Shown here: one piece after another, positions 16,116-41,009 of the stretch
How positions within the stretch are numbered: the stretch's first letter is position 1
Layout of the letters: each line of letters begins with the position of its first letter
From: Spinacia oleracea
Lineage: Eukaryota > Streptophyta > Magnoliopsida > Caryophyllales > Amaranthaceae
Length of the DNA stretch: 64,000 bases
Assembly: GCF_020520425.1 (NCBI RefSeq)
Contig: NC_079492.1
Location: 114,115,157-114,179,156 of the forward strand
Reading direction: 5' to 3'
Notes under the pieces: generated by a model
What the model saw: the letters and a program-made list of their open reading frames with translations, nothing else
The model's database searches: none
Told to the model about the DNA's origin: nothing
Program-made: the position numbers and the translations under genes

Positions 16116-16208
16116 GTAATGCAACCTAATTTTTGTTTACTTTTGAAGATATTAAATTTACCTTTGAAATAATGCTTTGTTTACTTTTGAAAACTGAGAT
16201 GGTCTAAC

Positions 16209-16750: not shown

Positions 16751-17181
16751 GATGTGGCTTGTAGGTTTATCTGATGTTACTTGTTATTCCAAGTGTCTTT
16801 TTGGGTATGAACTAGTCTAATAGCACCATTAACCAGGTACTTCTAATATTTTTTGGATAGTGGTAACTTGATGTAGCTGTGGGCAGGGATTTCTGTGTTT
16901 TCGGCTTGTTATCGTGGCAGGACATTAGGCAAAAATGGGGCGGATAGGTAGTGGTCTTCTGTATTCCTATGGGTGGACTTGTTAATTCTATTTGCAGAGG
17001 TTGTAGAGGTAGAGTAGCCATACATATACGTAAAATTATTATGCCTACTTATAGGAAGAAATACTAGACAACATTTAGGATCTGTTGTCTTTTTTACAGC
17101 CCAAGATACTACCAGATGTGTTAAAGTAAACAAAATTTTTGCAAAAGTAAACTAAATCTCGCGAAGTCTCTAGATTATTAG

Positions 17182-18546: not shown

Positions 18547-18563
18547 GTCTCCCACTTGTCCTT
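18547..18563 (-). promoter_or_regulatory. C1 polypurine tract
   Basis: On the minus strand AAGGACAAGTGGGAGAC lies directly before the 3' LTR. It primes plus-strand DNA synthesis. The same tract stands in front of the C2 3' LTR. Confidence 0.85.
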
Positions 18564-19411: not shown

Positions 19412-22400
19412 TCAAAGCCATTCTCCAATATGCTTGATTCCCATAGCTGCAGTGTGCGAGTTGTGCTTCGCCTGCGGCAGAGGTTTAGTCAATGGATCTG
19501 ATATGTTGTCATCAGTTCCAATCTTGTTTATCTCGACTTCTTTTCTTTCAACGAACTCTCGTAGAAGGTGAAATCTACGAAGTACATGCTTGACTCTCTG
19601 GTGGTGTCTAGGCTCCTTTGCCTGTGCAATAGCTCCGTTATTATCACAATACAGGGCTATTGGTCCTTTAATGGAGGGGACTACACCAAGTTCACCTATG
19701 AACTTCCTTAGACATATAGCTTCCTTTGCTGCTTCATGTGCAGCAATGTACTCCGCTTCAGTTGTAGAATCCGCAATGGTGCTTTGCTTAGCACTTTTCC
19801 AGCTTACTGCACCCCCGTTGAGGCAGAAGACAAACCCAGACTGTGATCTGAAATCATCTTTGTCGGTTTGGAAACTTGCGTCCGTATAGCCTTTAACAAT
19901 TAATTCATCATCTCCACCATAGACCAGGAAGTCATCTTTGTGCCTTTTCAGGTACTTCAGAATATTCTTGGCAGCAGTCCAATGTGCCTCTCCTGGGTCT
20001 GACTGGTATCTGCTCGTAGCACTGAGTGCGTACGCAACATCCGGGCGTGTACATATCATAGCATACATTATTGAACCAATCAATGATGCATATGGAATCC
20101 CATTCATTTGTCTACGCTCATCAAGTGTTTTTGGGCACTGAGTCTTGCTTAGAGTTATTCCATGAGACATGGGTAGGTAGCCTCGCTTGGAGTCCTCCAT
20201 CTTGAACCTATCAAGCACCTTATTGATATAAGTGCTTTGACTAAGTCCAATCATCTTTTTAGATCTATCTCTGTAAATCTTGATGCCCAATATGTACCGT
20301 GCTTCTCCTAGATCTTTCATCGAAAAACATTTCCCAAGCCAAATCTTGACAGAGTTCAACATAGGAATGTCATTTCCGATTAGTAGTATGTCGTCGACAT
20401 ATAATACTAGGAAAACAATTTTGCTCCCACTGACCTTCTTGTATACACAAGATTCGTCTGCGTTCTTGATGAAACCAAAGTCACTTACTGCTTCATCAAA
20501 ACGTATATTCCAGCTCCTGGATGCCTGCTTCAATCCGTAGATTGACTTCTTTAGCTTGCATACCTTTTTAGCATTCTTTGGATCCTCAAAACCTTCAGGT
20601 TGTGTCATAAACACAGTTTCTGTTAAAACGCCGTTTAAGAAAGCAGTTTTGACATCCATCTGCCATATTTCGTAATCGTAATATGCAGCGATTGCTAACA
20701 TTATCCGAATAGACTTTAGCATTGCAACTGGTGAAAAAGTTTCATCATAATCCACACCGTGGACTTGCCTATAACCTTTTGCAACCAATCTAGCTTTGAA
20801 AACTTCAAGTTTCCCATCCTTGTCCTTTTTCAGTTTGAAAACCCATTTGCTTCCAATGGCTTGGTAGCCATCTGGCAAATCGACCAAATCCCATACTTGG
20901 TTTTCAGACATGGAGTCTAATTCAGATTGCATGGCTTCTTGCCATTGCTTGGAGCTAGGGCTCGTCATAGCTTGTTTGTAAGTCGCAGGTTCATCACTTT
21001 CAAGTAATAGAACGTCATAGCTCTCGTTCGTCAAAATACCTAAGTACCTTTCCGGTTGAGATCTATATCTTTGCGATCTACGCGGGGTAACATTTCTAGA
21101 TTGACCATGATTCTCACCAGATTCTTCTAAAGATCTCTGAGTTTCATCCTGAATGTCATCTTGAGCATTCTCTAGAGTTTGTTGTTCGAGTCGAATTTCT
21201 TCGAGGTCTACTTTTCTCCCACTTGTCATTTTGGAAATGTGATCTTTCTCCAAAAAGACACCATCTTGAGCAACAAACAACTTGTTCTCAGATGTATTGT
21301 AGAAGTAATACCCCTTTGTTTCCTTTGGATAGCCCACAAGGATACATTTGTCAGATTTTGGATGAAGTTTGTCTGAAATTAATCGTTTGACGTATACTTC
21401 ACATCCCCAAATCTTCAGAAAAGACACATTTGGAGGCTTTCCAAACCATAATTCATATGGAGTCTTTTCGACAGCTTTAGACGGAGCTCTATTTATAGTG
21501 AGTGCAGCTGTATTTAGTGCATGTCCCTAAAATTCTAATGGAAGTTTGGCCTGACCCATCATTGACCTGACCATGTCTAGCAAGGTTCTGTTCCTCCGTT
21601 CCGACACACCGTTCCATTGTGGTGTTCCAGAAGGAGTCAATTCTGATAGAATTCCACATTCTTTCAGATGGTCATCAAATTCATAGCTCAGATATTCACC
21701 GCCTCTATCAGACCGCAGTGCCTTAATCTTCTTGCCTAATTGATTCTCTACTTCACTCTGAAATTCCTTGAATTTGTCAAAGGATTCAGACTTATGCTTC
21801 ATTAGGTAGACATAACCATATCTACTGAAGTCATCAGTGAAAGTGATAAAGTAGCTGAAACCACCTCTAGCATTTGTACTCATTGGTCCACATACATCTG
21901 TATGGATTAAACCCAATAGTTCATTTTCTCTTTCTCCAACTTTAGAGAAAGGTTGCTTTGTCATTTTGCCAAGTAAACATGATTCGCATTTACCATAATC
22001 CTCTAAGTCAAATGGTTCTAGAATTCCTTCCTTTTGAAGTCTTTCTAAGCGTTTCAAGTTTATATGGTCTAATCGATAATGCCACAGATAGGTGAGATCT
22101 GAATCATCCTTTTTGGCCTTTTTGGTATTTATGTTATATACTTGTTTGTCGTGATCTAATAAATAAAGTCCATTGACTAATCTAGCAGATCCATAAAACA
22201 TCTCTTTAAAATAAAACGAAAAACTATTGTCTTTTATTAAAAAGGAAAATCCCTTAGCATCTAAGCAAGAAACTGAAATGATGTTTTTAGTAAGACTTGG
22301 AACATGGAAACACTCTTCCAGTTCCAAAACTAGCCCGGAGGGCAACGATAAATAATAAGTTCCTACAGCTAATGCAGCAATCCGTGCTCCATTTCCCACT

Positions 22401-23398
22401 CGTAGGTCGACTTCACCCTTGCTTAACTTTCTACTTCTTCTTAGTCCCTATGGATTGGAACATAAGTGTGAGCCACAACCTGTATCTAATACCCAAGAAG
22501 TTGAATTAGCAAGTATACAGTCTATAACGAAAATACCTGAAGATGGAATGACTGTCCCGTTCTTCTGATCTTCCTTTAGCTTTGGACATTCTCTTTTGTA
22601 ATGGCCTATTCCATCACAATAAAGACAACTTGATGTGGACTTGTCCTGCTTTGATTTAGCATCGCCCTTGGACTTTCCACTTTTCTTGAACGGTCTCCTT
22701 CTAGCCTTGAGTAAATCTTTGGCTTCACAGTCCAGTATTATTTCAGCTTTTCTGACAAGGTGAACAAATTCTGCAACTGTTTCTTCTCTTGGTTCACTTA
22801 GGTATAGTTGCTTGAAGCGACCAAACCCACTGTGTAGTGAATTGAGCAAGATAGAGACTGCCATCCTTTCGCTTATTGGTGTTCCTAGTAGACTTAGGCG
22901 ATCAAAGTATGAACGCATAAGATCCACATGGAATCTCAGTGGGACGCCTACCCTCTGTTTAGTGCGAAGGAGCTGAACATGTGTTTCTTGGACTTCCATC
23001 CTATAACACCTGTTGGGAGAACTAACCTTTAGACCAGACATTGATTCAATCAACTCATGGACGTTCAGGTCCTTGTCCTCCGTGCTTCAACGAAAGATAT
23101 CCCTCAGATTCTTGATGAGCGTAAAAGGTTCATAGGCTACAAACCTTCTAGCCCAATCATCAGGGATATTGTTCAGCATGAGACTCATAACCTTTTTGAG
23201 ATCCGCATCCCAGGCGTAAAATCTCTCAGGGGTCATGTCTCTGGCATAGTAGCTTGGCATGGGATTGGTCAGTACATACTCAAGTCCATTGAGTCTGACT
23301 ATTTCAACTAGCTTAGCTTCCCATTCAAGAAAATTTGCTAGGTTCAGCTTGACCATAAGCTCAGAACCCATGATGATGTTTTGATTGTTGTTTGCCAT
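19412..23398 (-). pseudogene. C1 Copia gag-pol polyprotein with three nonsense codons
   Basis: The polyprotein builds the particle and carries out reverse transcription and integration. The chosen start is the ATG at 23398 (MANNNQNII), because it directly precedes the gag-like sequence. Motifs in order: gag zinc knuckle CLYCDGIGHYKREC, protease VLDTGCGSH, integrase zinc-binding region and DDE core (IHTDVCGPMS, LRSDRGGEY, WNGVSERRNRT), RT with YVDDILLIGND, RNase H with YTDASF and LYCDNNGAIAQ. In-frame stops: TGA at 23089-23087 (Gly in C2), TAG at 22450-22448 (Gln in C2), TAG at 21529-21527 (Trp in C2). No frameshift is seen. In the integrase finger one His is replaced (LDHINL against LGHINL in C2 shows Gly to Asp). 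The RT-RNase H part is open from 21427 to the stop at 19412. Confidence 0.92.
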
Positions 23399-26262
23399 AT
23401 TTAAAACTACAATTGAAAAGAATAAACAAATAAATAACCATTCACAGTTTCTCTTAATAAACTTAAATTCTAGCATACATGCATAATTCAATGTTCATTA
23501 AGCACTTTATTCAAGTTATGTGTTTCGGCAGGTGTGAATAAAATGATTCCAAGATCCTAAAATCATTGAAGAACTAAGCACAGTTTGTCGACTTAATCCT
23601 AAAACATCTTAGGTAAGCAAAAGCCTTTTGCTAATAGTCTAGAAACTATTCTTGGTTGATAGGTACGTCTAAGAACTTATTAGGTAAACCTATCGATTTT
23701 GCCACGACATAAAAGGACTCCTTACTTATATCGTTGAGTTTCACCAAAACTAACATGTACTCACAATTATTTGTGTACCTTGCCCCTTTAGGACCAATAA
23801 GTAACACCTCGCTGAGCGAAAACTATTACTAGATTGATGTAAAGGATATCCAAGCAAGTGTATATTTTGGCATGACACCTTTTAACTCAATTTTTAAGTT
23901 TGGAACTTAAGGCTCTTACTATGTTGGTTAGATTTTAAGTGAACTAAAATCCTTAATCATGCAACATAATCAAGCTTTTGATCTCATGCATTTTAAGACA
24001 TATTTAAAAACAATAAATAACTTAAAACATGCATAAGATAAATGTGATCTAGTATGGCCCGACTTCATCTTGAAGCTTTAACTTCAAAGTCCGTCTTGAA
24101 AATCTCCGTGGGAGGCACCATTTTCTTCAAATAGAATAAGCTATAATTAAAACTAATTACAACTATTTGATGGTACGCAGACCATATTTGAATTGAAAAA
24201 CAACTTTGGTACTTTAGACCAATTATATTCAAATTAATGGTACGCAGACCATATTTTCTATCCTATTTGGGCCATACTAGTCACTTCATAACCTGCAAAA
24301 CAGTACATATACAATATATACCATTCACCCATTCATTAACATGAATGGCCCACATAGCTGGTTAGTAAAACACATTATGCATCACATAAACATTTGCATC
24401 AATTAATCAAGGGCACCAATAATCTACAAATTATTCAGTCCTTATTAATTCTAATCAAGTTGTTTTAACCTTAAGGTTTTGTAGACCTAATCAAGAGTTT
24501 ATGACTAAAAGGGGCTCCCACTTAAACCAATAAATTCATATGCTTTACTAATTTTAAACATAAAAATGTATTTCTAGTCTAACCGGAAACATACAAATTT
24601 AATTAAAATTTAAAGCTCATATAAATTTATAATTGAATCCACAAAGTTTAATTTAATTTCAGTCGTATTTAAATTAATTCATGATTTTAATTTTAGTAAA
24701 ATAATTAGAATAAATAAAATTTATTATAATTACAATATTCAAAATTAAAATCCAAGAAAATAATTTAAATTATTAATTTTAAAATTAATTAAAATTACGT
24801 AAACTGAAAATTTCAAATTAAAATTTCAAAACGATCTAATCGCAACGCAACAATCCCACGCAACGCACGCCCATGGGCCACACGCACACAGCCATCGCTG
24901 GCCATGTGCGCGCAGCCCATGCGCTGCCTCGCATCGCTGCTGCTCACCATCGCAAGGCATCACGCATGGTGCTCGCTGCGCGCGCCAGCGCTCGACGCAC
25001 GAGCATGCTGCCGCAGCCCTTCGCTGGGCGCAACGCTCGTCGCACGTCGCAACACGCACCCGCACGCCATCGCTGGGCGCAGCGCTCGTCGCACTCACAA
25101 TAGCGCACGCACGCCATCGCTGGGCGCAGCGCTCGTCGCACGCACAATAGCGCTCACACGCCATCGCTGGGCGCAGCGCTCGTCGTACGCACAACAGCGC
25201 TCGCTGCGCGCGAGCGATCGATGCTTGGCGCAGCACTTGTGGCACGCGCGAGGCTCCGCTCGCTTGCGCGAGGCAGTGCGCGCTGTGGCGCAGCTCGCTT
25301 GCTGCCCACACGCGACTGCTCGTGCCTTGCTCTCGCCCTCGCCCATTCGCCTATTGCACACAACCCACGACACAAGGCAAGGCTGCTGCCTTGTGCTCGT
25401 GCACCATGGCCTTGCTCATTGCATTCGTACCGCATGGGCGACGAGCTCCCTTGCTCGTCGTCACATGCCCGCACGATACAACACCCCTTAAGGGTAACAC
25501 GTAGCGTCCATTGCTTTGTGCGTGCAAGTTATATGAGAAAATCGCATAAAAAATTTAAAATTTATATTCAAAATTAATGACAAATTAATAAATAATATTA
25601 ATTTCATAATTTCAGGGCGAAAAATCGAAAATTTATTATTCAATTGATTTCCGATTAACATGGATTCAAGTCTAGGTCATAAAATTTAAAATTTAACATA
25701 AAGTTACAATTTTTACGGTGGTTTTTAATCACAGGTATCTAATTAAATTATAACTAATTATGAAAATCAAATTAATTCTAAATTATTCCAATTTTCAACA
25801 AATTAATCATAATTACAAATTAGATTGCATAATTAACAAGGCTAGGCATTCAAACTTGTTAAACATATACAGTAGGTCAATCAAAAATTCAAGATTTATC
25901 AACAAGAATCGCAAATATTTAATTTAACATCTTAAATTTACGAAATTTTGCATTCGAAAAACTAAAACCTCCGAAAAGTCATAGTTAGGCTTCGAATTTG
26001 AGAATTCTGGGTTCGGCCGAAAAATACTGTTTTTGTCAAAATTTTAGAATGCCTTTTACATGCGGAATTGACACAAAAATCACTCGATTTGGATGAGTAA
26101 CGAAGAAACTGCCGAAAAACTGCGTACGTATAATTAAATAAACGCAATTTGCGATTAATTAACAATTACGAAAATTAATCACCCCTTTTAATTCTTGCAA
26201 ATTTATAATATTTAACCATGTTCATGCAATTTAGATTATGAAAATAATAAGAGGCTCGTGAT
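23399..26262 (-). other. C1 leader between PBS and gag, with GC-rich island
   Basis: A long untranslated leader of about 2.9 kb. Most of it is AT-rich, but 24840-25505 is a sharply bounded GC-rich island with a repeated block of about 39-45 bp (CGCTGGGCGCAGCGCTCGTC at about 25070, 25118 and 25166). Overlapping Ala/Arg-rich frames occur in it on both strands and are composition artefacts. The same island, diverged, occurs in C2. A direct repeat GGTACGCAGACCATATTT lies at about 24171 and 24239. Confidence 0.7.
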
Positions 26263-26276
26263 ACCACTGTTAGGTT
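26263..26276 (-). promoter_or_regulatory. C1 primer binding site (initiator Met tRNA type), one base inserted
   Basis: On the minus strand TGGTATCACGAGCC lies one base after the LTR. The usual initiator-Met site is TGGTATCAGAGCC; here a C is inserted after TGGTATCA. C2 has the same form. Confidence 0.8.
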
Positions 26277-26277
26277 A

Positions 26278-26707
26278 TGATACATATGACAATTCATAAA
26301 TCATGCGGAAAACCCATAAAGCCAGGAAAACATATTATTTACACATAATCATTTAGCATAGTTTAGATGCATACTCTTTGTTGCGTGCCTTCCCTAGCTG
26401 CGCCCGAACCGAACAAGAAAAAGTCTTTAGGACTCCAAGTGTCGTCCCTCCGTAGATAGTCCACAGCACGTCCGGATCCGCCTTAAGATTGACCAACTAG
26501 AATTGCCCTTAAGGTACTATTATTTTCGGTACTTTTATAGGCAATTGTGTAATTGAATTTTGCTCTCAAAAACTCACTTTGAATACTTGAATGCTCGATG
26601 TAAATATGTGACCCTAGGCACCTATTTATAGAGTTATGGAAAAGGATTTGGAATCCTATTAGGATACTAATTTATTTAATTATAATCCTACTAGGACTCT
26701 AATTAAA
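26278..26707 (-). repeat. C1 5' LTR remnant (last 430 bp)
   Basis: Only the downstream part of the 5' LTR remains, ending in CATAACCTAACA at 26278. It is cut at 26707, about 960 bp short of a full LTR. Its sequence is almost the same as the matching part of the C2 LTRs, and clearly unlike C1's own 3' LTR. Confidence 0.9.
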
Positions 26708-27003
26708 TAAACTTTTTCGAAAGAGTATGTCAACATCTAAGTTGGGGTCAGGGATCCCTGAAAAAGAATTTGAGCAGAGGGTAGTTCTTGCCTGGTTAAA
26801 GAACGTACCAACACCATCTCTTATCATCTTATAGTATATTACCAGTTTTCCCTCCTATTTTTTGATACAGCTGATAGACACACACATAATTGTCCGATTA
26901 AGTTTGTTTAGGCAGGAGGGTAAAGTTTTTCATTCGCTAAGCCTAAGATGGCAGGAAGACATATGCAAAGTATACATCCTATCGAATCTGGGGTTCACAG
27001 TAC
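26708..27003 (+). other. Short unique segment between C1 and C2
   Basis: About 296 bp, not Copia, between the two inverted elements. An open frame from ATG at 26728 reads MSTSKLGSGIPEKEFEQRVV and ends within about 35 codons. A second coding-like stretch, after TTTTTGATACAG (a possible splice acceptor near 26868), continues in frame into the sequence right of C2 (37456 on). I do not recognise the protein. Confidence 0.45.
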
Positions 27004-27309
27004 TGAAGGAAATAATGCCCTTGGTCCAAGTATGCATTCAATGTTAAGTCTAATAAATGCGGTTCAGTATTAATTAACAAGTTAATAATTCAGTGAGATC
27101 AAGTGAGCTGAATGCCTAGCTAGAGGCCGCTTCAGTTCAAGTGGAATTAATGATATTAATCCACAGCTTACTCTTGACTAAACCCGTAGGGTCACACAAA
27201 TAGTACGTAAACGGATCAAGTATTTAATGGCATTAAATACTCCATCTATGGATATTCGGAATCGACGGATCTTGGTTTCAGTGGGAGCTGAGATCGTCAC
27301 AGGCAAGAA

Positions 27310-27650
27310 ATGAATACTCCGGAAACGATGATATTGCCGGAAACGGAAATATGGATCGTATCGGAAATATAAATATTATCCAAGTCGTAGATGTTGCCGG
27401 AAACGGAAACATGGTACGTATCGGAAAATATTATCGGAAATGGAAATATTGCCGGAATCGGAAATATTGCCGGAAACGGAAATATTGTCAGAATCGGAAA
27501 TATTATCGGAATCGGAAAATAATTCCGGAAACGGAAATATTAAATATTTGTTCGAAACGGAAATTGATTCCGGAATCGGAAATGTTGAATATTGTTCGTA
27601 TCGGAAATGAATTCCGGAATCGGGAAATTAATCGGAAGCGTATCGTACGA
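27310..27650 (+). repeat. CGGAAATATT iteron block in the C2 5' LTR
   Basis: The block is made of short degenerate units of about 15-18 bp, such as CCGGAAACGGAAATATTG and CGGAATCGGAAATATTAT, repeated more than a dozen times. It lies about 400-700 bp upstream of the TATA box. The same block occurs in all full LTR copies of this family here (for example 17890-18230, 36370-36700, 46600-46900, 48560-48900, 56290-56610). Its role is unknown; a U3 enhancer array is an inference. Confidence 0.8.
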
Positions 27651-28035
27651 ATTAGCATCGGACGAGGCCTGCCAGACGAAGGCCCAGCACGAAGCCGGGC
27701 CATCGCCCAGCAAGCCAGCGCGCCACAAACGCACCAGCCAAGGCTGCGCCAGGCCCACCGCAAGGCAGGCCCAGCGCGCGCCAAGGCTACGGCAGCGTGT
27801 GGGCTTGCGGCAGTGGGCTGCGAGCTCGCGGGCTGCGCGCGCGCGCATGGCGCCCCTCGTGGGCTGCTGTGCGTGCGTGTGTGTTTGTGTGCTACTCGAA
27901 TCCTAAAGCTACCGGGATTTGTCATATGATTAAATCTAATCCTAAAAGATTTAGTTTATTTAATTAGAGTCCTAGTAGGATTATAATTAAATAAATTAGT
28001 ATCCTAATAGGATTCCAAATCCTTTTCCATAACTC

Positions 28036-28043
28036 TATAAATA
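28036..28043 (+). promoter_or_regulatory. TATA box of the C2 5' LTR
   Basis: TATAAATA preceded by CATAACTC. The same box recurs at the same place in the C2 3' LTR (37093-37100) and the solo LTR (57027-57034). Transcription would start about 30 bp further on, near the CCTAGGGTCACAT block. Confidence 0.65.
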
Positions 28044-28399
28044 GGTGCCTAGGGTCACATATTTACATCGAGCATTCAAGTATTCAAAGTGAGTTTTTGA
28101 GAGCAAAATTCAATTACACAATTGCCTATAAAAGTGCCGAAAATAATAGTACCTTAAGGGCAATTCTAGTTGGTCAATCTTAAGGCGGATCCGGACGTGC
28201 TGTGGACTATCTACGGAGGGACGACACTTGGAGTCCTAAAGACTTGTTCTTGTTCGGTTCGGGCGCAGCTAGGGAAGGCACGCAACAAAGAGTATGCATC
28301 TAAACTATGCTAAATGATTATGTGTAAATAATATGTTTTCCTGGCTTTATGGGTTTTCCGCATGATTTATGAATTGTCATATGTATCATAACCTAACAG

Positions 28400-28413
28400 T
28401 GGTATCACGAGCC
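28400..28413 (+). promoter_or_regulatory. C2 primer binding site, one base inserted
   Basis: TGGTATCACGAGCC one base after the LTR; like C1, it has an extra C compared with the initiator-Met tRNA complement TGGTATCAGAGCC. The fragment at 47804-47816 keeps the canonical form. Confidence 0.8.
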
Positions 28414-31208
28414 TCTTATTATTTTCATAATCTAAATTGCATGAACATGGTTAAATATTATAAATTTGCAAGAATTAAAAGGGGTGATTAATTTTTGTAA
28501 TTGTTAATCAATTGCAAATTGCGTTTATTTAATTATACGTACGCAGTTTTTCGGCAGTTTCTTCGTTACTCAACCAAATCGAGTGATTTTTGTGTCAATT
28601 CCGCATGTAAAAGGCATTCTAAAATTTTGACAAAAATAGTGTTTTTCGGCCGAACCCAGAATTCTCAAATTCGAAGCCTAACTATGACTTTTCGGAGGTT
28701 TTAGTTTTTCGAATGCAAAATTTCGTAAATTTAAGATGTTAAATTAAATATTTGCGATTCTTGTTGATAAATCTTGAATTTTTGATTGACCTACTGTATA
28801 TGTTTAACAAGTTTGAATGCCTAGCCTTGTTAATTATGCAATCTAATTTGTAATTATGATTAATTTGTTGAAAATTAGAATAATTTAGAATTAATTTGAT
28901 TTTCATAATTAATTATAATTTAATTAGATACCTATGATTAAAAACCACCATAAAAATTGTAAATTTATGATAAATTTTAAATTTTTATGACCTAGACTTG
29001 AATCCATGTTAATCGGAAATCAATTGAATAATATATTTTCGATTTTTTCGCCCTAAAATTATGAAATTAATATTATTTATTAATTTGTCATTAATTTTAA
29101 ATATAAATTTTTTAAATTTTATGCGATTCGTTCATATAACTTGCACGCACAAAGCAATGGACGCTACGTGTTACCCTTAAGGGGTGTTGTATAGTGCGGG
29201 CATGTGACAACGAGCAAGGGAGCTCGTCGCCCATGCGGCACGAATGCAATGAGCAAGGCCATGGTGCACGAGCACAAGGCAGCAGCCCTGCCTTGTGTCG
29301 TGGGCCGTGAGCAATGGACGAATGGGCGAGGGCGAAAGCAAGGCACAGCAGTCGCGTGTGGGCAGCAAGCGAGCTGCGCCACAACGCGCACTGCCTCGCG
29401 CAAGCGTGCGGAGCCTCGCGCGCAGCGAGGGCAAGCTCGCGTGCCACGAGTGCTACGCCCAGCGTCGATGCCTCGAGCAGCGAGCGATGGCTCGCAGGAT
29501 CGAGCGCTGGCAAGCGCGCGCAGCAAGCGCTGGCGAGCGCACGCAGCGAGCGCTGGCTCGCATGAAGCGAGCGCTGGCGAGCGAGCGCAGCGAGCGATGG
29601 CTCGCGTGCATCGAATGCTGGCGCGCGCAGCGAGCACCAGCTCGCGTGATGCCTTGCGATGGTAAGCAGCAGCGATGCAAGGCAGCGCATGGGCTGCGCG
29701 CACATGGCCAGCGATGGCTGTGTGCGTGTGGCCCATGGGCGTGCGTTGCGTGAGGTTGTTGCGTTGCGATTAGATCGTTTTGAAATGTTAATTTGAAATT
29801 TTCAGTTTACGTAATTTTAATTAATTTTAAAATTAATAATTTAAATTATTTTCTTGGATTTTAATTTTGAATATTGTAATTATAATAAATTTTATTTATT
29901 CTAATTATTTTACTAAAATTAAAATCATGAATTAATTTAAATACGACTGAAATTAAATTAAACTTTTTGGATTCAATTATAAATTTATAAGAGCTTTAAA
30001 TTTTAATTAAATTTGTATGTTTCCGGTTAGACTAGAAATACATTTTTATGTTTAAAATTAGTAAAGCATATGAATTTATTGGTTTAAGTGGGACCCCTTT
30101 TAGTCATAAACTCTTGATTAGGTCTAAAAATCCTTAAGGTTAAAACAACTTGATTAGAATTAATAAGGACTGAATAATTGGTAGATTATTGGTGCCCTTG
30201 ATTAATTTCTGCAAATGTTTACGTGATGCATAATGTGTTTGACTAACCAGCTATGTGGGCCATTCATGATAATGAATGGGTGAATGGTATATATTGTATA
30301 TGTACTGTTTTGCAGGTTATGAAGTGACTAGTATGGCCCAAATAGGATAGAAAATATGGTATGCGTACCATTAATTTGAATGTAATTGGTCTAAAGTACC
30401 AAAGTTGTTTTTCAATTCAAATATGGTCTGCGTACCATCAAATAGTTGTAATTAGTTTTAATTATAGCTTATCCTATTTGAAGAAAATGGTGCCTCTCAC
30501 GGAGATTTTCAAGACGGACTTTGAAGTTAAAGCTTCAAGATGAAGTCGGGCCATACTAGATCACATTTATCTTATGCATGCTTTAAGTTATTTATTGCTT
30601 TAAATATGTCTTAAAATGCATGAGATCAAAAGCTTGATTATGTTGCATGATTAAGGATTTTAGTTCACTTAAAATCTAACCAACATAGTAAGAGCCTTAA
30701 GTTCCAAACTTAAAAATTGAGTTAAAAGGTGCCATGCCAAAATATACACTTGCTTGGATATCCTTTACATCAATCTAGTAATAGTTTTCGCTCAGCGAGG
30801 TGTTACTTATTGGTCCTAAAGGGGCAAGGTACACAAATAATTGTGAGTACATGTTAGTTTTGGTGAAACTCAACGATATAAGTAAGGAGTCCTTTTATGT
30901 CGTGGCAAAATCGATAGGTTTACCTAATAAGTTCTTAGACGTACCTATCAACCAAGAATAGTTTCTAGACTATTAGCAAAAGGCTTTTGCTTACCTAAGA
31001 TGTTTTAGGATTAAGTCGACAAACTGTGCTTAGTTCTTCAATGATTTTAGGATCTTGGAATCATTTTATTCACACCTGCCGGAACACATAACTTGAATAA
31101 AGTGCTTAATAAACATTGAATTATGCATGTATGCTAGAATTTAAGTTTATTAAGAGAAACTGTGAATGGTTATTTATTCGTTTATTCTTTTCAATTGTAG
31201 TTTTAAGT
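28414..31208 (+). other. C2 leader with GC-rich island
   Basis: About 2.8 kb between PBS and gag. The island at about 29140-29760 is GC-rich with repeated GAGCGATGGCTCG, GCGCTGGCGAGCG and AGCGAGCGCTGGC blocks, many of them palindromic, between AT-rich flanks. Long Ala/Arg/Cys-rich frames there run on both strands and in several phases, which speaks against a real protein. The flanking leader is almost identical to that of C1, but the island itself has diverged. Confidence 0.7.
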
Positions 31209-34200
31209 ATGGCAAACAACAATCAAAACATCATCATAGGTTCTGAGCTTATGGTCAAGCTGAACCTGGCAAATTTTCTTGAATGGGAAGCTAAGCTAGT
31301 TGAAATAGTCAAACTCAATGGACTTGAGTATGTACTGTCACATCCCATGCCAAGCTACTATGCCAGAGACATGACCCCTGAGAGATTTTACGCCTGGGAT
31401 GCGGATCTCAAAAAGGTTATGAGTCTCATGCTGAACAATATCCCTGATGATTGGGCTAGAAGGTTTGTAGCCTATGAACCTTTTACGCTCATCAAGAATC
31501 TGAGGGATATCTGTCGTGGAAGCACGGAGGACAGGGACCTGAACGTCCATGAGTTGATTGAATCAATGTCTGGTCTAAAGGTTAGTTCTCCCAACAGGTG
31601 TTATAGGATGGAGGTCCAAGAAACACATGTTCAGCTCCTTCGCACTAAACAGAGGGTAGGCGTCCCACTGAGGTTTCATGTGGATCTTATGCGTTCATAC
31701 TTTGATCGCCTAAGTCTACTAGGAACACCAATAAGCGAAAGGATGGCAGTCTCTATCTTGCTCAATTCACTACACAGTGGGTTTGGTCGCTTCAAGCAAC
31801 TATACCTAAGTGAACCAAGAGAAGAAACAGTTGCAGAATTTGTTCACCTTGTCAGAAAGGCTGAAATAATACTGGACTGTGAAGCCAAAGATTTACTCAA
31901 GGCTAGAAGGAGACCGTTCAAGAAAGGTGGAAAGTCCAAGGGCAATGCTAAATCAAAGCAGGACAAGTCCACATCAAGCTGTCTTTATTGTGATGGAATA
32001 GGCCATTACAAAAGAGAATGTCCAAAGCTAAAGGAAGATCAGAAGAACGGAACAGTCGTTCCATCTTCAGGTATTTTCGTTATAGACTGTATACTTGCTA
32101 ATTCAACTTCTTGGGTATTAGATACAGGTTGTGGCTCACACTTATGTTCCAATCCACAGGGACTAAGAAGAAGTAGAAAGTTAAGCAAGGGGGAAGTCGA
32201 CCTAAGAGTGGGAAATGGAGCACGGATTGCTGCATTAGCTGTAGGAACTTACTATTTGTCGTTGCCCTCCGGGCTAGTTTTGGAACTGGAAGAATGTTTC
32301 CATGTTCCAAGTCTTACTAAAAACATCATTTCAGTTTCTTGCTTAGATGCTAAGGGATTTTCCTTTTTAATAAAAGACAATAGTTGTTCGTTTTATTTTA
32401 AAGAGATGTTTTATGGATCTGCTAGATTAGTCAATGGACTTTATTTATTAGATCACGACAAACAAGTATATAACATAAATACCAAAAAGGCCAAAAAGGA
32501 TGATTTAGATCTCACCTATCTGTGGCATTGTCGATTAGGCCATATAAACTTGAAACGCTTAGAAAGACTTCAAAAGGAAGGAATTCTAGAACCATTTGAC
32601 TTAGAGGATTATGGTAAATGCGAATCATGTTTACTTGGCAAAATGACAAAGCAACCTTTCTCTAAAGTTGGAGAAAGAGCAAATGAACTATTGGGTTTAA
32701 TCCATATAGATGTATGTGGACCAATGAGTACAAATGCTAGAGGTGGTTTCAGCTACTTTATCACTTTCACTGATGACTTCAGTAGATATGGTTATGTCTA
32801 CCTAATGAAGCATAAGTCTGAATCCTTTGACAAATTCAAGGAATTTCAGAGTGAAGTAGAGAATCAATTAGGCAAGAAGATTAAGGCACTGCGGTCTGAT
32901 AGAGGCGGTGAATATCTGAGCTATGAATTTGATGACCATCTGAAAGAATGTGGAATTCTATCAGAATTGACTCCTCCTGGAACACCACAATGGAACGGTG
33001 TGTCGGAACGGAGGAACAGAACCTTGCTAGACATGGTCAGGTCAATGATGGGTCAGGATAAACTTCCATTAGAATTTTGGGGACATGCACTAAATATAGC
33101 TGCACTCACTATAAATAGAGCTCCGTCTAAAGCTGTCGAAAAGACTCCATACGAATTATGGTTTGGAAAGCCTCCAAATGTGTCTTTTCTTAAGATTTGG
33201 GGATGTGAAGTATACGTCAAACGATTGATTTCAGACAAACTTCATCCAAAATCTGACAAATGTATCCTTGTGGGCTATCCAAAGGAAACAAAGGGGTATT
33301 ACTTCTACAATACATCTGAGAACAAAGTGTTTGTTGCTCGAGATGGTGTCTTTTTGGAGAAAGATCACATTTCCAAAATGACAAGTGGGAGAAAAGTAGA
33401 CCTCGAAGAAATTCGAGTCGAACAACAAACTCTAGAGAATGCTCAAGATGACATTCAGGATGAAACTCAGAGATCTTTAGAAGAATCTGGTGAGAATCAT
33501 GGTCAAACTAGAAATGTTACCCCACGTAGATCGCAAAGATATAGATCTCAACCGGAAAGGTACTTAGGTATTTTGACGAACGAGAGCTATGACGTTCTAT
33601 TACTTGAAAGTGATGAACCTGCGACTTACAAACAAGCTATGACGAGCCCTAGCTCCAAGCAATGGCAAGAAGCCATGCAATCTGAATTAGACTCCATGTC
33701 TGAAAACCAAGTATGGGATTTGGTCGATTTGCCAGATGGCTACCAAGCCATTGGAAGCAAATGAGTTTTCAAACTGAAAAAGGACAAGGACGGGAAACTT
33801 GAAGTTTTCAAAGCTAGATTGGTCGCAAAAGGTTACAGGCAAGTCCACGGTGTGGATTACGATGAAACCTTTTCACCAGTTGCAATGCTAAAATCTATTC
33901 GGATAATGTTAGCAATCGCTGCATATTACGATTACGAAATATGGCAGATGGATGTCAAAACTGCTTTCTTAAACGGCGTTTTAACAGAAACTGTGTTTAT
34001 GACACAGCCTGAAGGTTTTGAGGATCCAAAGAATGCTAAAAAGGTATGCAAGCTAAAGAAGTCAATCTACGGATTGAAGCAGGAATCCAGGAGCTGGAAT
34101 ATACGTTCTGATGAAGCAGTCAGTGACTTTGGTTTCATCAAGAACGCAGACGAATCTTGTGTATACAAGAAGGTCAGTGGGAGCAAAATTGCTTTCCTAG

Positions 34201-35195
34201 TATTATATGTCGACGACATATTACTTATCGGAAATGACATTCCTATGTTGAACTCTGTCAAGATTTGGCTTGGGAAATGTTTTTCGATGAAAGATCTAGG
34301 AGAAGCACAGTACATATTAGGCATCAAGATTTACAGAGATAGATCTAAAAGGATGATTGGACTTAGTCAAAGCACTTATATCAATAAGGTGCTTGATAGG
34401 TTCAAGATGGAGGACTCCAAGCGAGGCTACCTACCCATGTCTCATGGAATAACTCTAAGCAAGACTCAGTGCCCAAAAACACTTGATGAGCGTAGACGAA
34501 TGAATGGGATTCCATATGCATCATTGATTGGTTCAATAATGTATGCTATGATATGTACACGCCCGGATGTTGCGTACGCACTCAGTGCTACGAGCAGATA
34601 CCAGTCAGACCCAGGAGAGGCGCATTGGACTGCTGCCAAGAATATTCTGAAGTACCTGAAAAGGCACAAAGATGACTTCCTGGTCTATGGTGGAGATGAT
34701 GAATTAATTGTTAAAGGCTATACGGACGCAAGTTTCCAAACCGACAAAGATGATTTCAGATCACAGTCTGGGTTTGTCTTCTGCCTCAACGGAGGTGCAG
34801 TAAGCTGGAAAAGTGCTAAGCAAAGCACCATTGCGGATTCTACAACTGAAGCGGAGTACATTGCTGCACATGAAGCAGCAAATGAAGCTATATGGCTAAG
34901 GAAGTTCATAGGTGAACTTGGTGTAGTCCCCTCCATTAAAGGACCAATAGCCCTGTATTGTGATAATAACGGAGCTATTGCACAGGCAAAGGAGCCTAGA
35001 CACCACCAGAGAGTCAAGCATGTACTTCGTAGATTTCACCTTCTACGAGAGTTCGTTGAAAGAAAAGAAGTCGAGATAAGCAAAATTAGAACTGATGACA
35101 ACGTATCAGATCCATTGACTAAACCTCTACCGCAGGCGAAACACAACTCGCACACTGCAGCTATGGGAATCAAGCATATTGGAGAATGGCTTTGA
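31209..35195 (+). pseudogene. C2 Copia gag-pol polyprotein, one nonsense codon
   Basis: Start chosen at ATG 31209 (MANNNQNII), although the frame is open upstream from 31116. Features in order: gag; zinc knuckle CLYCDGIGHYKREC (about 31980-32020); protease DTGCGSH (from 32121); integrase zinc finger HCRLGHINLKRL to CESCLLGK (about 32525-32645); integrase core IHIDVCGPMS, LRSDRGGEY and WNGVSERRNRT; RT with MDVKTAFLNG and YVDDILLIGND (near 34205); RNase H with YTDASF, TTEAEYIA and LYCDNNGAIAQ; stop after 35193. The single break is TGA at 33762-33764, where C1 has TGG (Trp) in the motif GSKWVFKLK. It is a G-to-A change. About 1,330 codons in all, a usual Copia length. Confidence 0.94.
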
Positions 35196-36043
35196 TATCC
35201 TTGTTTAATGTTTTAAAGTTTTAGAGTTTAAATCTTTGTAAAACAATATTGGTTAATCATTCACAATAAATGAAGAGAATTCATTTTTCCATTTAATTTG
35301 TGGTTTATTAAATGATGAGTCCCTTCAATTTGACGATATATTCAAGATAGACTGTCAGGACCAGTCCTGTGACTAAGAAATGTCTATCAAGTGAACTTGA
35401 ATGTCAAAGGTTGAAAATGGTCCCTAGTCGGAGTTTTCTATAAAATTGGACGCATAGAAAACGTTAGACGACTAGAATGCAAGATGACTAGTAGTTCTGT
35501 TTCTTGAACTATGTGGACATGGCAATGTCATAATCATTTGCATAGATACTTACTTTGGGAAGACTAGTATCGGACAAGACCTATGAAACTTTACTGTAAG
35601 AGATGAAAATCTGTCATAAGTAAATTTCATTAAAATTATTAGACACTAAATCCTCAATACCTGAGTGATTTGAGATTACTTGTTTGAGAACTGGTTGCTT
35701 TGACGTTGACCAACCGTCGCACCGTAAAAGGAGGCTATAAAGGCAACGCTCAGGTAATCACCTATCAAACGAAGTCTAATCTCAAGATCGCAAGATTGGG
35801 ATTGTCCTCCCATAAATCTGGATGAGATGCTTAAAAGTTGTACAAGGCCACTCGGAGAGCTAGAAACTGTGAAATGCATGGCCGTGCTCGGATAAATCAT
35901 AGGCTATGATTATCTGTTTATTTGATCAGTTGAACTCTGAAATCGAGGAACACCTCTGGACATAATAAGGATGACAACTCTTACCTTATGTTCAAGAGCA
36001 AGCATCGAGCGACAAAGGAATTAGGAAATGCACACTTGTCCCT
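35196..36043 (+). other. C2 3' untranslated region
   Basis: About 850 bp from the pol stop to the PPT, nearly identical to C1. No gene is seen in it. Confidence 0.75.
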
Positions 36044-36060
36044 AAGGACAAGTGGGAGAC
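36044..36060 (+). promoter_or_regulatory. C2 polypurine tract
   Basis: AAGGACAAGTGGGAGAC directly before the 3' LTR, the primer for plus-strand DNA synthesis. Confidence 0.85.
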
Positions 36061-37455
36061 TGAAGGAAATAATGCCCTTGGTCCAAGTATGCATTCAATG
36101 TTAAGTCTAATAAATGCGGTTCAGTATTAATTAACAAGTTAATAATTCAGTGAGATCAAGTGAGCTGAATGCCTAGCTAGAGGCCGCTTCAGTTCAAGTG
36201 GAATTAATGATATTAATCCACAGCTTACTCTTGACTGAACCCGTAGGGTCACACAAATAGTACGTAAACGGATCAAGTATTTAATGACATTAAATACTCC
36301 ATCTATGGATATTCGGAATCGACGGATCTTGGTTTCAGTGGGAGCTGAGATCGTCACAGGCAAGAAATGAATACTCCGGAAACGATGATATTGCCGGAAA
36401 CGGAAATATGGATCGTATCGGAAATATAAATATTATCCAAGTCGTAGATGTTGCCGGAAACGGAAACATGGTACGTATCGGAAAATATTATCGGAAATGG
36501 AAATATTGCCGGAATCGGAAATATTGCCGGAAACGGAAATATTGTCAGAATCGGAAATATTATCGGAATCGGAAAATAATTCCGGAAACGGAAATATTAA
36601 ATATTTGTTCGAAACGGAAATTGATTCCGGAATCAGAAATGTTGAATATTGTTCGTATCGGAAATGAATTCCGGAATCGGGAAATTAATCGGAAGCGTAT
36701 CGTACGAATTAGCATCGGACGAGGCCTGCCAGACGAAGGCCCAGCACGAAGCCGGGCCATCGCCCAGCAAGCCAGCGCGCCACAAACGCACCAGCCAAGG
36801 CTGCGCCAGGCCCACCGCAAGGCAGGCCCAGCGCGCGCCAAGGCTACGGCAGCGTGTGGGCTTTCGGCAGTGGGCTGCGAGCTCGCGGGCTGCGCGCGCG
36901 CGCATGGCGCCCCTCGTGGGCTGCTGTGCGTGCGTGTGTGTTTGTGTGCTACTCGAATCCTAAAGCTACCGGGATTTGTCATATGATTAAATCTAATCCT
37001 AAAAGATTTAGTTTATTTAATTAGAGTCCTAGTAGGATTATAATTAAATAAATTAGTATCCTAATAGGATTCCAAATCCTTTTCCATAACTCTATAAATA
37101 GGTGCCTAGGGTCACATATTTACATCGAGCATTCAAGTATTCAAAGTGAGTTTTTGAGAGCAAAATTCAATTACACAATTGCCTATAAAAGTGCCGAAAA
37201 TAATAGTACCTTAAGGGCAATTCTAGTTGGTCAATCTTAAGGCGGATCCGGACGTGCTGTGGACTATCTACGGAGGGACGACACTTGGAGTTCTAAAGAC
37301 TTGTTCTTGTTCGGTTCGGGCGCAGCTAGGGAAGGCACGCAACAAAGAGTATGCATCTAAACTATGCTAAATGATTATGTGTAAATAATATGTTTTCCTG
37401 GCTTTATTGTTTTTCCGCATGATTTATGAATTGTCATATGTATCATAACCTAACA
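36061..37455 (+). repeat. C2 3' LTR (1395 bp)
   Basis: Same length as the 5' LTR, with TG...CA ends. Differences noticed by eye include GGCATTAAA/GACATTAAA, GCTTGCGG/GCTTTCGG and GGAGTCC/GGAGTTC, six or seven in all. Confidence 0.95.
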
Positions 37456-38070
37456 AGAACCATCTTCCTCTTTATGAGTTTTCTCCTACGTGCATCCCTA
37501 AATTAGAGGGGGTCTGGTATACTAGACCGGAAATGGAACTTCAAGACCATAGGTTATGTTTTGCTCTTTTGTCTCCCAGTTTTCGTCTTGGATCTCCTTG
37601 TTGATATGGTTGGCCCCAAAGTCTGACGTGGAAAGATTAGAGTGTTGAGAAGATTTCCTGAACAATTCACGACATTATTGGAGGTTGCTTGTATCAGGCC
37701 AAACTGTTATTGCTTGCATATATCCCTTGTTGTGTACAATAATCCATGGACTGTTTGCCATCGTCCTAACCACTTACCTGTTGTTGCTTGGGAGGCGGAT
37801 GGTTGCGTCAGTCATCAACAAAGGGTTGCAGAAGAGAGTTTACATACTTATATTTCTTGCTTCAAGTTTCCTTCCTTTGAGGGTTATTTTGCTTGGGTTT
37901 TCAGTTTTGGCTAGACAAGAGCATTTTCTCTTTAAAGCTCTTGTCTTTTATGGTTTTCTTGTGCTTTTTTTGTACGTTGTAGTGGGTATTTTTATGGTTG
38001 TTTACTTACCTGTTGCGGAATTAAATCAGGATTTTAATGGTTTTAACCTTTGTAGTCATTAATCAAGTTA
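37456..38070 (+). pseudogene. Unrecognised coding-like fragment right of C2
   Basis: The frame from about 37459 reads HLPLYEFSPTCIPKLEGVWY, then a segment ending in CFALLSPSFRLGSPC before a TGA near 37602. It joins in frame with GRKTYAKYTSYRIWGSQ just left of C2, so C2 split one reading frame. A second open frame from about 37642 (CIRPNCYCLHISLVVYNNPW) overlaps a hydrophobic frame. I do not recognise a family. It may be part of the same unit as 15384-17181. Confidence 0.35.
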
Positions 38071-38777
38071 GTTTGTGGACGTTTAAGATAAATCAAAAAT
38101 GTTTTTCTCCTCCATTTCGTGTCGGGTATTTTTGTATCTTTCCGGCTATCCCTCCTTGTCTAGCATATGAGATTTACTTTTAAATTAGTTTCATTTACTT
38201 CTTTTAGTTATTATTTACTTTTAAGCAACTTGAGATTGTGTCTATGTGAATTACTTTAAATCTGTTCCATAAACTTTAAAATTAGTTCCATTTACTTTTC
38301 AGACTTAATTATCTACTTTTGTTAAATGCATTACCAATCTAGCTTCTTGATAGCAACCTCATGGCATGTCTCTGAATTCACAGCAGCACCGGAAAAAAAA
38401 GTGTTTTCTCTTACATTTATCAACCCAATTTGTAAAAAATTGTATAGGAAATCAGATATTCTTTTCTCTTATTTTGAAAAGTAGATCAAAATCTGATAAA
38501 AGTAAATAATTAAGCTGAGAAGTAAATACGCGAAGCTAGTTGTGAATTCTTTTGAGCCATTGCCATAAATGTCATACTTGAGCTATGAAGCATAGACTTA
38601 TATGCTTTGAGTTGGAATAATAGTTGATAATGAAGATGGTGTCTTGACTCAAACAGCTAAAGTAACTATATTGTGCATAGTAAACTAAATCTCTCCCAAA
38701 GTAAACAAAATCTCTCTAAAAGTAAATTAAATAACAATGAAACATCAATTATAATTTTCTCTTAAATTTTTTGTGAA

Positions 38778-38848
38778 AACCTATTAGCTCAAATGGTAGA
38801 GCACTATACAGATGTATAGGGGATGTAGGTTCGATTCCTACATAGGTT
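38778..38848 (+). ncRNA. tRNA-like gene 1 (71 nt)
   Basis: It folds as a tRNA: acceptor AACCTAT with ATAGGTT (seven perfect pairs), D arm GCTC/GAGC, T arm GTAGG-TTCGATT-CCTAC. The internal promoter boxes are excellent: A box TAGCTCAAATGG and B box GGTTCGATTCC. The anticodon arm is abnormal: CTATAC-AGAT-GTATAG forms six pairs with a four-base loop (or five pairs with a six-base loop), so no standard seven-base anticodon loop with U33 exists. It is unlikely to decode. A T11 run follows 12 nt downstream. It may be a Pol III transcript or a remnant of a tRNA-derived element. Confidence 0.65.
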
Positions 38849-38859
38849 GTCTCTAGAAG

Positions 38860-38870
38860 TTTTTTTTTTT
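38860..38870 (+). terminator. T-run, probable Pol III terminator of tRNA-like gene 1
   Basis: Eleven T residues start 12 nt after the tRNA-like body, followed at once by about eleven A residues, so the T11A11 block is itself a palindrome. Runs of four or more T end Pol III transcription. Confidence 0.55.
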
Positions 38871-39254
38871 AAAAAAAAAAACTCTAAGGTAAATCAACAT
38901 ATGTACACTAAGTAAATGAAACTTGTAGCAACCAAGATCTACGTGATGAGCTAAATTATACAAAACTCTTGGTCACCGACTTTCATCTCTCTGCAAGATG
39001 AGATAAATTATAAAATAGAAGTACACGTGAGTATGTCAAAGTAAATGATTTCATATTAAAAGTAAATTAAACAATACAAAAAGTAAATGAAAAAGTAAAA
39101 AACTAATTAAACGAAGAACTAAACTCTAATTAGAAAAAATCAAAAGTAAATTAGAAAATTTTCGAAAGTATTTTGATAACATAAAAACTCCAATTATTGG
39201 AGTATATGGAGGCCAAAGTAAAGGTTTTCAAACGAAAAGTAAACAAAAGAATGC

Positions 39255-39259
39255 AAAAA
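39255..39259 (-). terminator. T5 run, probable Pol III terminator of tRNA-like gene 2
   Basis: On the minus strand TTTTT begins about 10 nt after the 3' end of the second tRNA-like gene, the usual distance for a Pol III terminator. Confidence 0.5.
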
Positions 39260-39268
39260 GTAAAGATG

Positions 39269-39336
39269 AACCTACGTGGGATTCGAACCCACATCTGTGC
39301 ATTTGCACAATGCTCTACCAATTGAGCTAGTAGGCT
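39269..39336 (-). ncRNA. tRNA-like gene 2 (68 nt), convergent with gene 1
   Basis: On the minus strand: acceptor AGCCTAC with GTAGGTT (one G-T pair), A box TAGCTCAATTGG, D arm GCTC/GAGC, T arm GTGGG-TTCGAAT-CCCAC, B box GGTTCGAATCC. The anticodon arm TTGTGC-AAAT-GCACAG has the same odd design as gene 1: six pairs closing a four-base ARAT loop, with almost every stem base different but pairing kept. The acceptor and T arms also change in a compensating way. The two genes face each other with their 3' ends about 420 bp apart. The sequence is not a standard tRNA that I can name. Confidence 0.65.
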
Positions 39337-39480
39337 AGTGGTATCTTAGTATCTTACCATACAATAGGAATAGTTAGAACACTATCATACACTTTGAATT
39401 TTGTTCAATTGAAAATGTAGATACATAACTTGTTAAAGTAAATAGAATTAATTCGAAAGTAAGTAATCATCAAATAGAAG

Positions 39481-41009
39481 ACTGAATAAATCAGAACAAC
39501 TAACTGCAGAATATAAAAAGTATTCAGAACCAAAACGAGTAGACTGCAGACTGGCAACAACGAGCAATTTCAGCAAGGGCTGTAGTTTCTGAATTTGACA
39601 ACTTCTAGCTTCGGAAAAATCTGGCCTTATGGTTTATTTCATGGTTATGTGTCGCTAATGACGGTGATTTGTTAACTCTCTGAACTTAATTCTACCCATG
39701 TGGCTACGTATCAACTACCACAACATCAATCAATCACCAAATGGATAATGAAAATGAATGTGTAAATGGCTTGTCCACACATGCTTGTTGAACAAATAAT
39801 ATTATGCCAGCCCTATTTAATCGCATAAACAAAGCTAATACGGTACAATTATCAGAAAGACAATGAAGCTAATTAATTATTTAGGAAACCAAACTAACAT
39901 GAAATGATATGTTGAATCTTCAAATTGTTTGATACCGCAATGCAAGTTGTCGTGCATACACGACTGGTCCACTGTCGATTGATTCAGTACAATAATAAAT
40001 TAAAGACAATTAAAATCATACTACCCTAGCAAGCATTGACAACCACTACCCCTGCAGCAACAACACACACACACACAACAGCAAGACAACTACCCAACAA
40101 TAAATCAATTCAGCATACCATCCTTGACTGACCTGCAACAATGGAGTTTCATATCGACTGACCTATCAAATCCCCTGAAACCACATTCATAATGATAAAA
40201 AAACAAGGCACACAAACAACAAGTCAACTCTGGTAAAGTTGACCAGAATTAACAAACAAAAGACAACACGCAACCTCAAAACCATCAAGCCAACATCACC
40301 AAACAACATCCCAGCTTACTAGCCTGATCAAACCTGCTACACTAGCCATCCATTCATGACATCTAGTCTGAATCCCGGCAGTTGTCAGACCTAAGGTTAA
40401 GACTTAAGAGTAGTGAAATAATGGTACTTTTATCTCAGATTGCATATGAACACCTTGCATAACAAAAAAAAAAGTAAACTGATCCTAGCTCCTAAATTGG
40501 GAGCTTTAATTAAACAAAGATGTTGAAATTCATTTGCCCCGGACAGACTCAAGACAAAGTGTTCGAGTATATAAGGAAGACAAGGAACCCAAACAAACTT
40601 TTGAAATTCAAGTATGTTCTTTCCCCTGTACTAGTGTATTAAGAATCAGGTATGTATTCCTGATATTAGGAAGAGCATCAGTAGGAGCTAGAACACCTAA
40701 GTTTCACCATTCTGAATCGCAAAACACCTAATATCAACAATAAAATCGAAATCGCAATTTGAAAATCCCAATTTTAGAAATCAAAATCACAAACAATGTA
40801 ACAAATCGAAGAAGTATTGCCTAATAATAGAGATAAGGAGAGAGTAGAGCTAAGGAACAAGATGCCAAAGTCATTCTAAACACAGAAAAATAATCTCATT
40901 TCTCTTTCACTGTCATAATCATAACAAACCAAAAATAGGATCCTGTTAAATTTCAAGCCAATGTAAAAGGTTTTGGGTTGAACCTTAACAGTAAAGCTTA
41001 AATACATAG
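39481..41009. other. AT-rich region, no gene seen
   Basis: About 1.5 kb between the tRNA-like pair and the Gypsy G2 LTR. A short (CA)n stretch lies near 40062-40080. I see no open frame of note, RNA gene or terminal repeat. Confidence 0.55.

Follow-up and report, generated by a model that had tools for sequence, protein, structure and literature searches.

MULEs that target TA microsatellites are the closest described systems. MuTAnT of Medicago (PMC4486113) and SaTar of guayule and rice (PMC5907723) carry terminal inverted repeats (TIRs) beside (TA)n and comprise many non-autonomous copies. The spinach family analyzed here resembles MuTAnT, SaTar, Micron of rice and TAFT of maize in that its TIRs lie directly beside (TA)n. 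Additionally, elements joined through one TA tract are common to SaTar (PMC5907723) and to the spinach family. However, the TA-targeting MULEs compared here are mostly short, unlike the long spinach elements with tRNA-like genes, and neither PMC5907723 nor PMC4486113 uses the word "tRNA" in its main text.

The second comparison is with Helenus, Ajax and Cassandra, the TRIMp3 elements. These non-autonomous LTR retrotransposons have a Pol III promoter that derives from a tRNA or from 5S, and for many Helenus families the prediction is that the tRNA-like portion does not function as a tRNA (PMC10886601). TRIMp3 and the spinach family are alike in being non-autonomous mobile elements that carry a small-RNA-derived, Pol III-type unit. 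Each LTR of TRIMp3 contains such a unit, from which the template RNA is probably made, whereas the spinach elements hold two differing, convergent genes inside a TIR element. The spinach elements end in TIRs beside (TA)n, and not in the two LTRs that enclose the tRNA-like unit of TRIMp3.

Like SINEs, the spinach genes are tRNA-like, carry A and B boxes and belong to a multicopy repeat, but they have no shared body or tail, keep a full acceptor stem and occur as a pair within a DNA transposon. SINEs and LTR-type TRIMs are known cases of mobile DNA with Pol III units, which there produce the RNA that is copied. A cut-and-paste element needs no RNA copy of itself, and thus a tRNA-like pair that is conserved in long copies asks for another reason. 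VANDAL elements are a MULE type with arrays of a short motif bound by VANC. The likeness to VANDAL lies in the short-motif arrays of a MULE-type element and is an analogy only, since the spinach motif is AAAGTAAA and tRNA-like genes are present in addition. PMC7678280 and PMC11700998 list few undetermined plant tRNAs and otherwise have no bearing on the pair, and the titles and abstract openings of the open-access literature yielded no description of tRNA-like genes inside a TIR transposon.

The window, which is the whole stretch of spinach DNA that was analyzed (64 kb, on contig C6), contains two tRNA-like genes, A and B, that face each other:

38778..38849, plus strand: tRNA-like gene A (class A), 72 nt, Rfam tRNA 53.7 bits, all 22 pairs standard; acceptor arm 7 bp, D arm 4 bp, variable loop 5 nt, T arm 5 bp
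38785..38796, plus strand: A box of gene A, TAGCTCAAATGG, read from the sequence
38804..38819, plus strand: hairpin of gene A at the anticodon position, 6 bp, CTATAC AGAT GTATAG
38828..38838, plus strand: B box of gene A, GGTTCGATTCC, read from the sequence
38860..38870, plus strand: T11 run that follows gene A and may serve as a Pol III terminator
39255..39259, minus strand: T5 run after gene B, within a AAAGTAAA motif read on the opposite strand
39268..39336, minus strand: tRNA-like gene B (class B), 69 nt, Rfam tRNA 48.7 bits, all 22 pairs standard
39279..39289, minus strand: B box of gene B, GGTTCGAATCC, read from the sequence
39295..39310, minus strand: hairpin of gene B at the anticodon position, TTGTGC AAAT GCACAG
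39318..39329, minus strand: A box of gene B, TAGCTCAATTGG, read from the sequence

Both genes exceed the Rfam tRNA gathering score of 29, and the two cloverleaves that a sequence-only reading of this DNA had placed here are thereby borne out. A laxer Rfam scan (E up to 5) over the 64-kb window found no tRNAs other than A and B. ARAGORN reported copy A alone, as tRNA-???, with an anticodon that could not be named. The earlier claim of a closed six-pair stem holds for copy A, whose hairpin has CTATGC ANAT GCATAG as its commonest form across the genome. Copy B is a 3-nt-deleted version of the usual 72-nt B; the deletion left a U-G as the sixth pair of an arm that is usually UUGUGC/GCACAA. The statement that the stem bases differ almost everywhere was too strong, as 5 of the 12 anticodon-stem bases and three of the six pairs differ. 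The T-runs, given as 10-12 nt away, begin 11 nt past copy A and 9 nt past copy B.

Genes A and B differ by 14 substitutions and one 3-nt gap, and 10 of the substitutions fall in stems, where they leave four pairs with both bases changed and two G-U pairs with a single change. When 10 stem substitutions were placed at random, the probability that no pair would be broken was 0.0002-0.012 and that of at least four double compensations was 0.0001-0.002; under one-way C-to-T decay, the absence of breaks together with the compensations had a joint probability of 0.001-0.004. The compensating change that had been noticed between the two window copies is therefore well founded, with pairing kept and low chance probabilities. 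The similarity between A and B stops at the gene ends, and the 60- and 200-nt flanks on both sides score like shuffled sequence. At pair 31-38, gene A of the window has A-U, a local double change from the usual G-C that is also present in locus L021, and G-U forms of this pair occur in L014, L016 and L020.

We searched the spinach genome (894,210,420 bases, 242 contigs) for relatives of both genes. A search with gene A as DNA query yielded 660 first-look candidates; the 40 that were scored all had an identity of 96% or more. Gene B gave 804 candidates, of which 41 were among the matches listed. Exact patterns that leave the anticodon arm free found 110 A copies (100 listed) and 143 B copies (100 listed) genome-wide; a third pattern found 90 further copies, comprising 83 of a second A class (A2) and five with an A-type arm. 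Reversed patterns, used as a control, had no match in the genome for any of the three. With 110 A, 83 A2 and 143 B exact-pattern copies, the proposal that the genes form a family accords with the genome. The tRNA annotation of such a genome may hold many of these genes as undetermined tRNAs or pseudogenes. Exact-pattern relatives numbered zero both in viral contigs and in the genomes of bacteria and archaea. No plasmid matched A in blastn, and the sole match of B against phages was a 79% piece of a tRNA-Ala with 77% covered.

The facing order is a property of the family. Among 20 regions of 9.9 kb sampled by gene A, a facing B gene was located downstream of A in 18 (in L027 by partial matches only) and was not found downstream of A in the regions L020 and L023. 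Among the matches listed (127 B and 108 A entries), all 18 A-B pairs no more than 4 kb apart were convergent, at distances of 482-1907 bp, and the same was true of all seven listed pairs that involve third-pattern copies (by their arms, five A2 and two A). Decayed extra B-like genes were observed at L017:5199-5270 and L027:5300-5371, and their downstream flanks are alike in both loci.

A comparison of the three classes indicates that the fold is probably under selection. Their commonest anticodon-position arms are CUAUGC/GCAUAG in A, UUGUGC/GCACAA in B and AUGUGY/GCACAU in A2. At pair 27-42, A has C-G, B has U-A and A2 has A-U; pair 29-40 is A-U or G-C by class. Between classes, pair 7 of the acceptor stem and one pair of the T arm also swap U-A for C-G and A-U for G-C. 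An alignment of 30 distinct genes had 96.5% of its cells paired, and sliding the stem partners dropped pairing to 25-52%. In this alignment, seven pairs were changed on both sides (a number reached by 6 of 500 shuffles), and 49 cells were doubly changed, compared with 17.6 after shuffling (reached by 0 of 500). Further pair types were no more numerous than after shuffling (14 compared with 15.2; reached by 500 of 500 shuffles). These shuffles keep the kinship of the copies as a confounder, and A2 was left out at pair 27-42 because MAFFT shifted its base 42 by one column. The earlier proposal that structure is kept by compensating changes is supported between classes A, B and A2.

Variation within a class was of another kind. 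All six arm pairs were standard in 80 of the 100 listed A copies, 74 of the 100 listed B copies and 74 of the 83 A2 copies. Compensating pairs are rare within one class, where a stem change usually breaks a pair. Random loss of pairing, which the sequence-only reading had named as the observation that would speak against it, is therefore seen in part: pairing is kept between classes, but single copies decay within a class. The innermost B pair, 32-37, was standard in just 83 of the 100 listed B copies, so the actual B arm may consist of five base pairs and a 6-nt loop. The arms of some A copies (for example C1:63584156, C5:118195609 and C1:106556968) end in ...GCATAT, with a C.U mismatch at 27-42, and are a possible intermediate between the A (C-G) and A2 (A-U) arms.

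These arms also bear on whether the genes decode. A 7-nt anticodon loop with U33 and a readable anticodon was not observed; in its place, there is a 6-nt loop or a closed hairpin. Working tRNAs with a short anticodon loop, used for instance in frameshifting or for AUN codons (the A loop being C-A-N-A-U-G), would accommodate the finding that base 34 of the A loop takes all four bases while the stems hold (G 43, T 25, A 22 and C 10 in the 100 listed A copies). However, the 6-nt loop lacks U33, and the loops of A2 are mostly CATT and those of B mostly AAAT, so that no anticodon is shared. We consider working tRNAs very improbable. From a closed hairpin without U33, normal decoding is not to be expected.

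The carrier was delimited by coverage with other copies, which revealed elements with sharp ends. The left end is GGACCAGGTTCTGGTGAGAACCTCCCTTAAGATGAGAACC, immediately 3′ of a TA tract; it runs GGACCAGGTTCTGGTGAGAACC..CTTAAGATGAGAAC, and the right end is its inverse with differences, immediately before a TA tract. Left and right ends cross-match in blastn, as terminal inverted repeats similar at both ends. In the 20 regions, eight left and 13 right ends were located, and a TA run of 7-118 nt adjoins every one of them; both ends were located in seven loci, 5.2-7.9 kb apart. The exact left-end 31-mer occurs 51 times in the genome and the exact right-end 33-mer 46 times. These defined ends beside (TA)n agree with the earlier suggestion that the genes are carried by a mobile element.

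The element interiors are highly variable. Pfam searches with 10 element ORFs found no transposase domain and gave three matches, all below cut-off: Bin3 at L028:3158-3676 (21.4 bits), SLC35F at L025:7040-7465 (17.6 bits) and a third (14.3 bits) that was taken as noise. The Bin3- and SLC35F-like pieces may be captured host gene fragments inside the elements. An autonomous partner was not found among the 150 scored of 1960 PF10551 candidates; for 96 of the 97 exact ends, the 20-kb surroundings contained one scored PF10551 match, which lies outside the element. Membership of the family in the TA-targeting MULEs is incomplete because a transposase with these ends was not found in this scored set. 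At C3:87222275-87222352, two left ends lie back to back (minus and plus strand), 47 bp apart, as if sharing a TA tract, and a junction resembling back-to-back left ends in one TA tract is present at L032:901-973.

The element of the window itself has the following parts:

15384..17181, plus strand: putative left part, with the left end of the family transposon, GGACCAGGTTCTGGTGAGAACC..., next to a TA tract; the same end occurs in other loci
17182..37455, no strand assigned: two inverted copia retrotransposons that split the element and are foreign to it
37456..41009, plus strand: putative rest of the transposon, which holds genes A and B; the right end is missing, and an LTR-like repeat begins at 41010

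Positions 15388-15945 match the left end of L016 at 87%. The two outer parts appear to be one split element, because L012 and L022 match 16868-16931 and then 38166-38222 at a spacing of about 0.45 kb. Positions 40756-40785 match sequence that in L010 and L013 precedes the right end by 0.46-0.68 kb; a right end was not found in the window, and thus the last few hundred bases of its element are probably missing. No convincing pair of TIRs with target duplications was found in the immediate surroundings of the motif field, which the much greater length of the element explains. The two copia copies (17182-26713 and, inverted, 37455-27953) are 95% identical over 9.6 kb, with copia-type Pfam domains at 31116-33761.

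Several minor observations concern the same stretch. In L020, at 5448-9901 (with A turned to the plus strand), a copia element lies just downstream of gene A and is 94.7% identical to window positions 17180-21624, so the same copia family seems to have struck this transposon family at least two times. We rejected A and B as primer tRNAs of the copia elements in the window: the sequence after one LTR is GTGGTATCACGAG, and no good match to the 3′ end of A or B was found elsewhere in the window. Neither a 95-aa ORF at 37627-37911 nor the spurious ORF that runs through gene B gave any candidate in protein searches. Two copies of one repeat, at 49523-49634 and 60340-60451, match Rfam frnS at 37.8 and 34.9 bits (threshold 60), probably by chance.

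A copies found by similarity look conserved partly through the method of selection, and we therefore also sampled the family by its ends, taking about 6 kb downstream of each of the first eight plus-strand exact left ends. All three long elements of this sample (L030, L034 and L037) have an A2-type gene followed by a facing B gene, whereas neither gene is present in any of the five short elements (L031, L032, L033, L035 and L036), in which 0.8-0.9 kb separate the left end from a right-end match and the motifs number 15-17. Both ends of L034 were located, 5.6 kb apart, and no right end was found within 6.2 kb in L030 and L037. A complete 0.78-kb relative, L029, likewise has both ends and 14 AAGTAAA motifs and no tRNA-like gene. 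On contig C3 (141177-153230), the short element L036 without the genes and the long element L037 with the pair start about 5.8 kb apart.

The genes are conserved well beyond their surroundings. In the three end-sampled long elements L030, L034 and L037, identity was 0.92 for the A2 genes and 0.84 for the B genes (that of L030 appears damaged in the anticodon arm), compared with 0.37-0.48 for the 72-nt flanks and 0.32-0.41 for shuffled flanks. In the 20 A-sampled regions, the B genes, which were picked without regard to their closeness to B, had an identity of 0.80 over 22 copies compared with 0.27-0.45 for their flanks; this value was 0.88 over the 17 copies left after removal of two arm-deleted copies, two L027 copies and one L017 copy.

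These comparisons bear on two further explanations. Ordinary tRNA pseudogenes could have been picked up once by a Pack-MULE-like element, and the fold would then be an ancestral echo. The highly variable interiors, the weak sub-cut-off Pfam matches in L028 and L025, which are maybe captured fragments, and the broken pairs in many copies agree with such an origin. However, the genes are 80-98% identical (98% applying to A copies chosen by similarity to A) while their flanks are near the shuffled baseline; there are three arm forms with pairing kept and with C-G, U-A or A-U at 27-42, and three of three end-sampled long elements carry both genes in convergent order. We regard pseudogenes as rather improbable. 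The other explanation, a SINE or SINE-like unit inserted in the elements, would account for a tRNA-like head with A and B boxes and seems to us most improbable: the homology of the window genes stops at the gene ends, the acceptor stem is kept, the 72-nt flanks are 0.27-0.56 identical among copies, and the listed pairs keep a fixed convergent order inside one transposon family. A match to a SINE family head, against which the sequence-only reading had guarded itself, does not fit genes with no shared body, poor flanks and a fixed convergent order.

Further evidence concerns transcription. The A boxes of the window match the A-box consensus, TRGYNNARNNGG, and its B boxes match the B-box consensus. 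In the alignment of copies, the A and B boxes are among the most constant stretches of the tRNA-like genes. Downstream of the gene, 10 of 20 A copies and 15 of 22 B copies have a T4 run no more than 25 nt away, compared with a background of 17% and 26%, respectively, at nearby positions of the same strand; this excess is suggestive only, because the copies are related, and the other 10 of the 20 A copies examined have no T4 within this distance. Cmscan with the Rfam tRNA model gave 35.8-57.5 bits for 25 A and B genes (13 of the 20 regions scanned). From these signals, we infer that RNA polymerase III would transcribe both genes into stable tRNA-like RNAs.

The strongest rival is a purely DNA-level role, in which TFIIIC would bind the A and B boxes, making them insulators or anti-silencing sites, and a stable RNA would be irrelevant. 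The constancy of the boxes is in keeping with it, as are T-runs that are not universal and the position of the genes within motif arrays. However, TFIIIC needs no pairing of the acceptor, T and anticodon stems, yet these stems compensate, which argues for an RNA. We consider a purely DNA-level role unlikely.

Overall, we favor the view, with a probability of roughly 60%, that these are Pol III-type, non-decoding tRNA-like genes whose fold is under selection and that they are conserved cargo of a MULE-like, non-autonomous transposon that targets TA microsatellites. In this reading, the family consists of roughly 5-8-kb non-autonomous DNA transposons that lie in (TA)n microsatellites and resemble TA-targeting MULEs, and each gene combines internal A and B boxes and a full cloverleaf with a closed anticodon hairpin (5-6 bp, 4-6-nt loop without U33). 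Transposition probably depends on a source in trans, because short relatives that share the ends and arrays but have no tRNA-like genes have also spread; the pair is thus not required in cis for movement as such. The pair would help long elements persist, most likely in cis, through TFIIIC/Pol III held on the element, which would resist silencing or insulate the AAAGTAAA array between and around the genes; this role in cis against silencing is the one that we infer. We put forward tentatively, and with some doubt, a stronger proposal, that a DNA transposon family partly lives by a dedicated pair of non-coding Pol III genes that mimic tRNAs, a new class of anticodon-less structured RNA that may guard the element from silencing or act on the host tRNA machinery. 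Because the family includes hundreds of natural variants, some with the pair and some lacking it, it lends itself to asking whether Pol III occupancy shields transposons from plant silencing.

The field of AGTAAA motifs that had been noticed around the genes is a real local excess within an unremarkable whole-window count. Within 38150-39470, AGTAAA occurs 19 times, compared with a mean of 3.05 and a maximum of 10 in 1000 dinucleotide shuffles, and over the whole window it occurs 55 times, compared with 54.9 expected. The array consists of two parts in the window:

38172..38320, minus strand: AAGTAAA motifs, part of the motif array
38500..39443, plus strand: AAGTAAA motifs, often 20-21 nt apart

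Elements of the family contain AAAGTAAA arrays with a spacing of about 21 nt, and in the 20 regions the orientation of AAGTAAA is mostly uniform relative to gene A. In the short elements L031 and L033, the AAGTAAA array is reversed relative to the left end.
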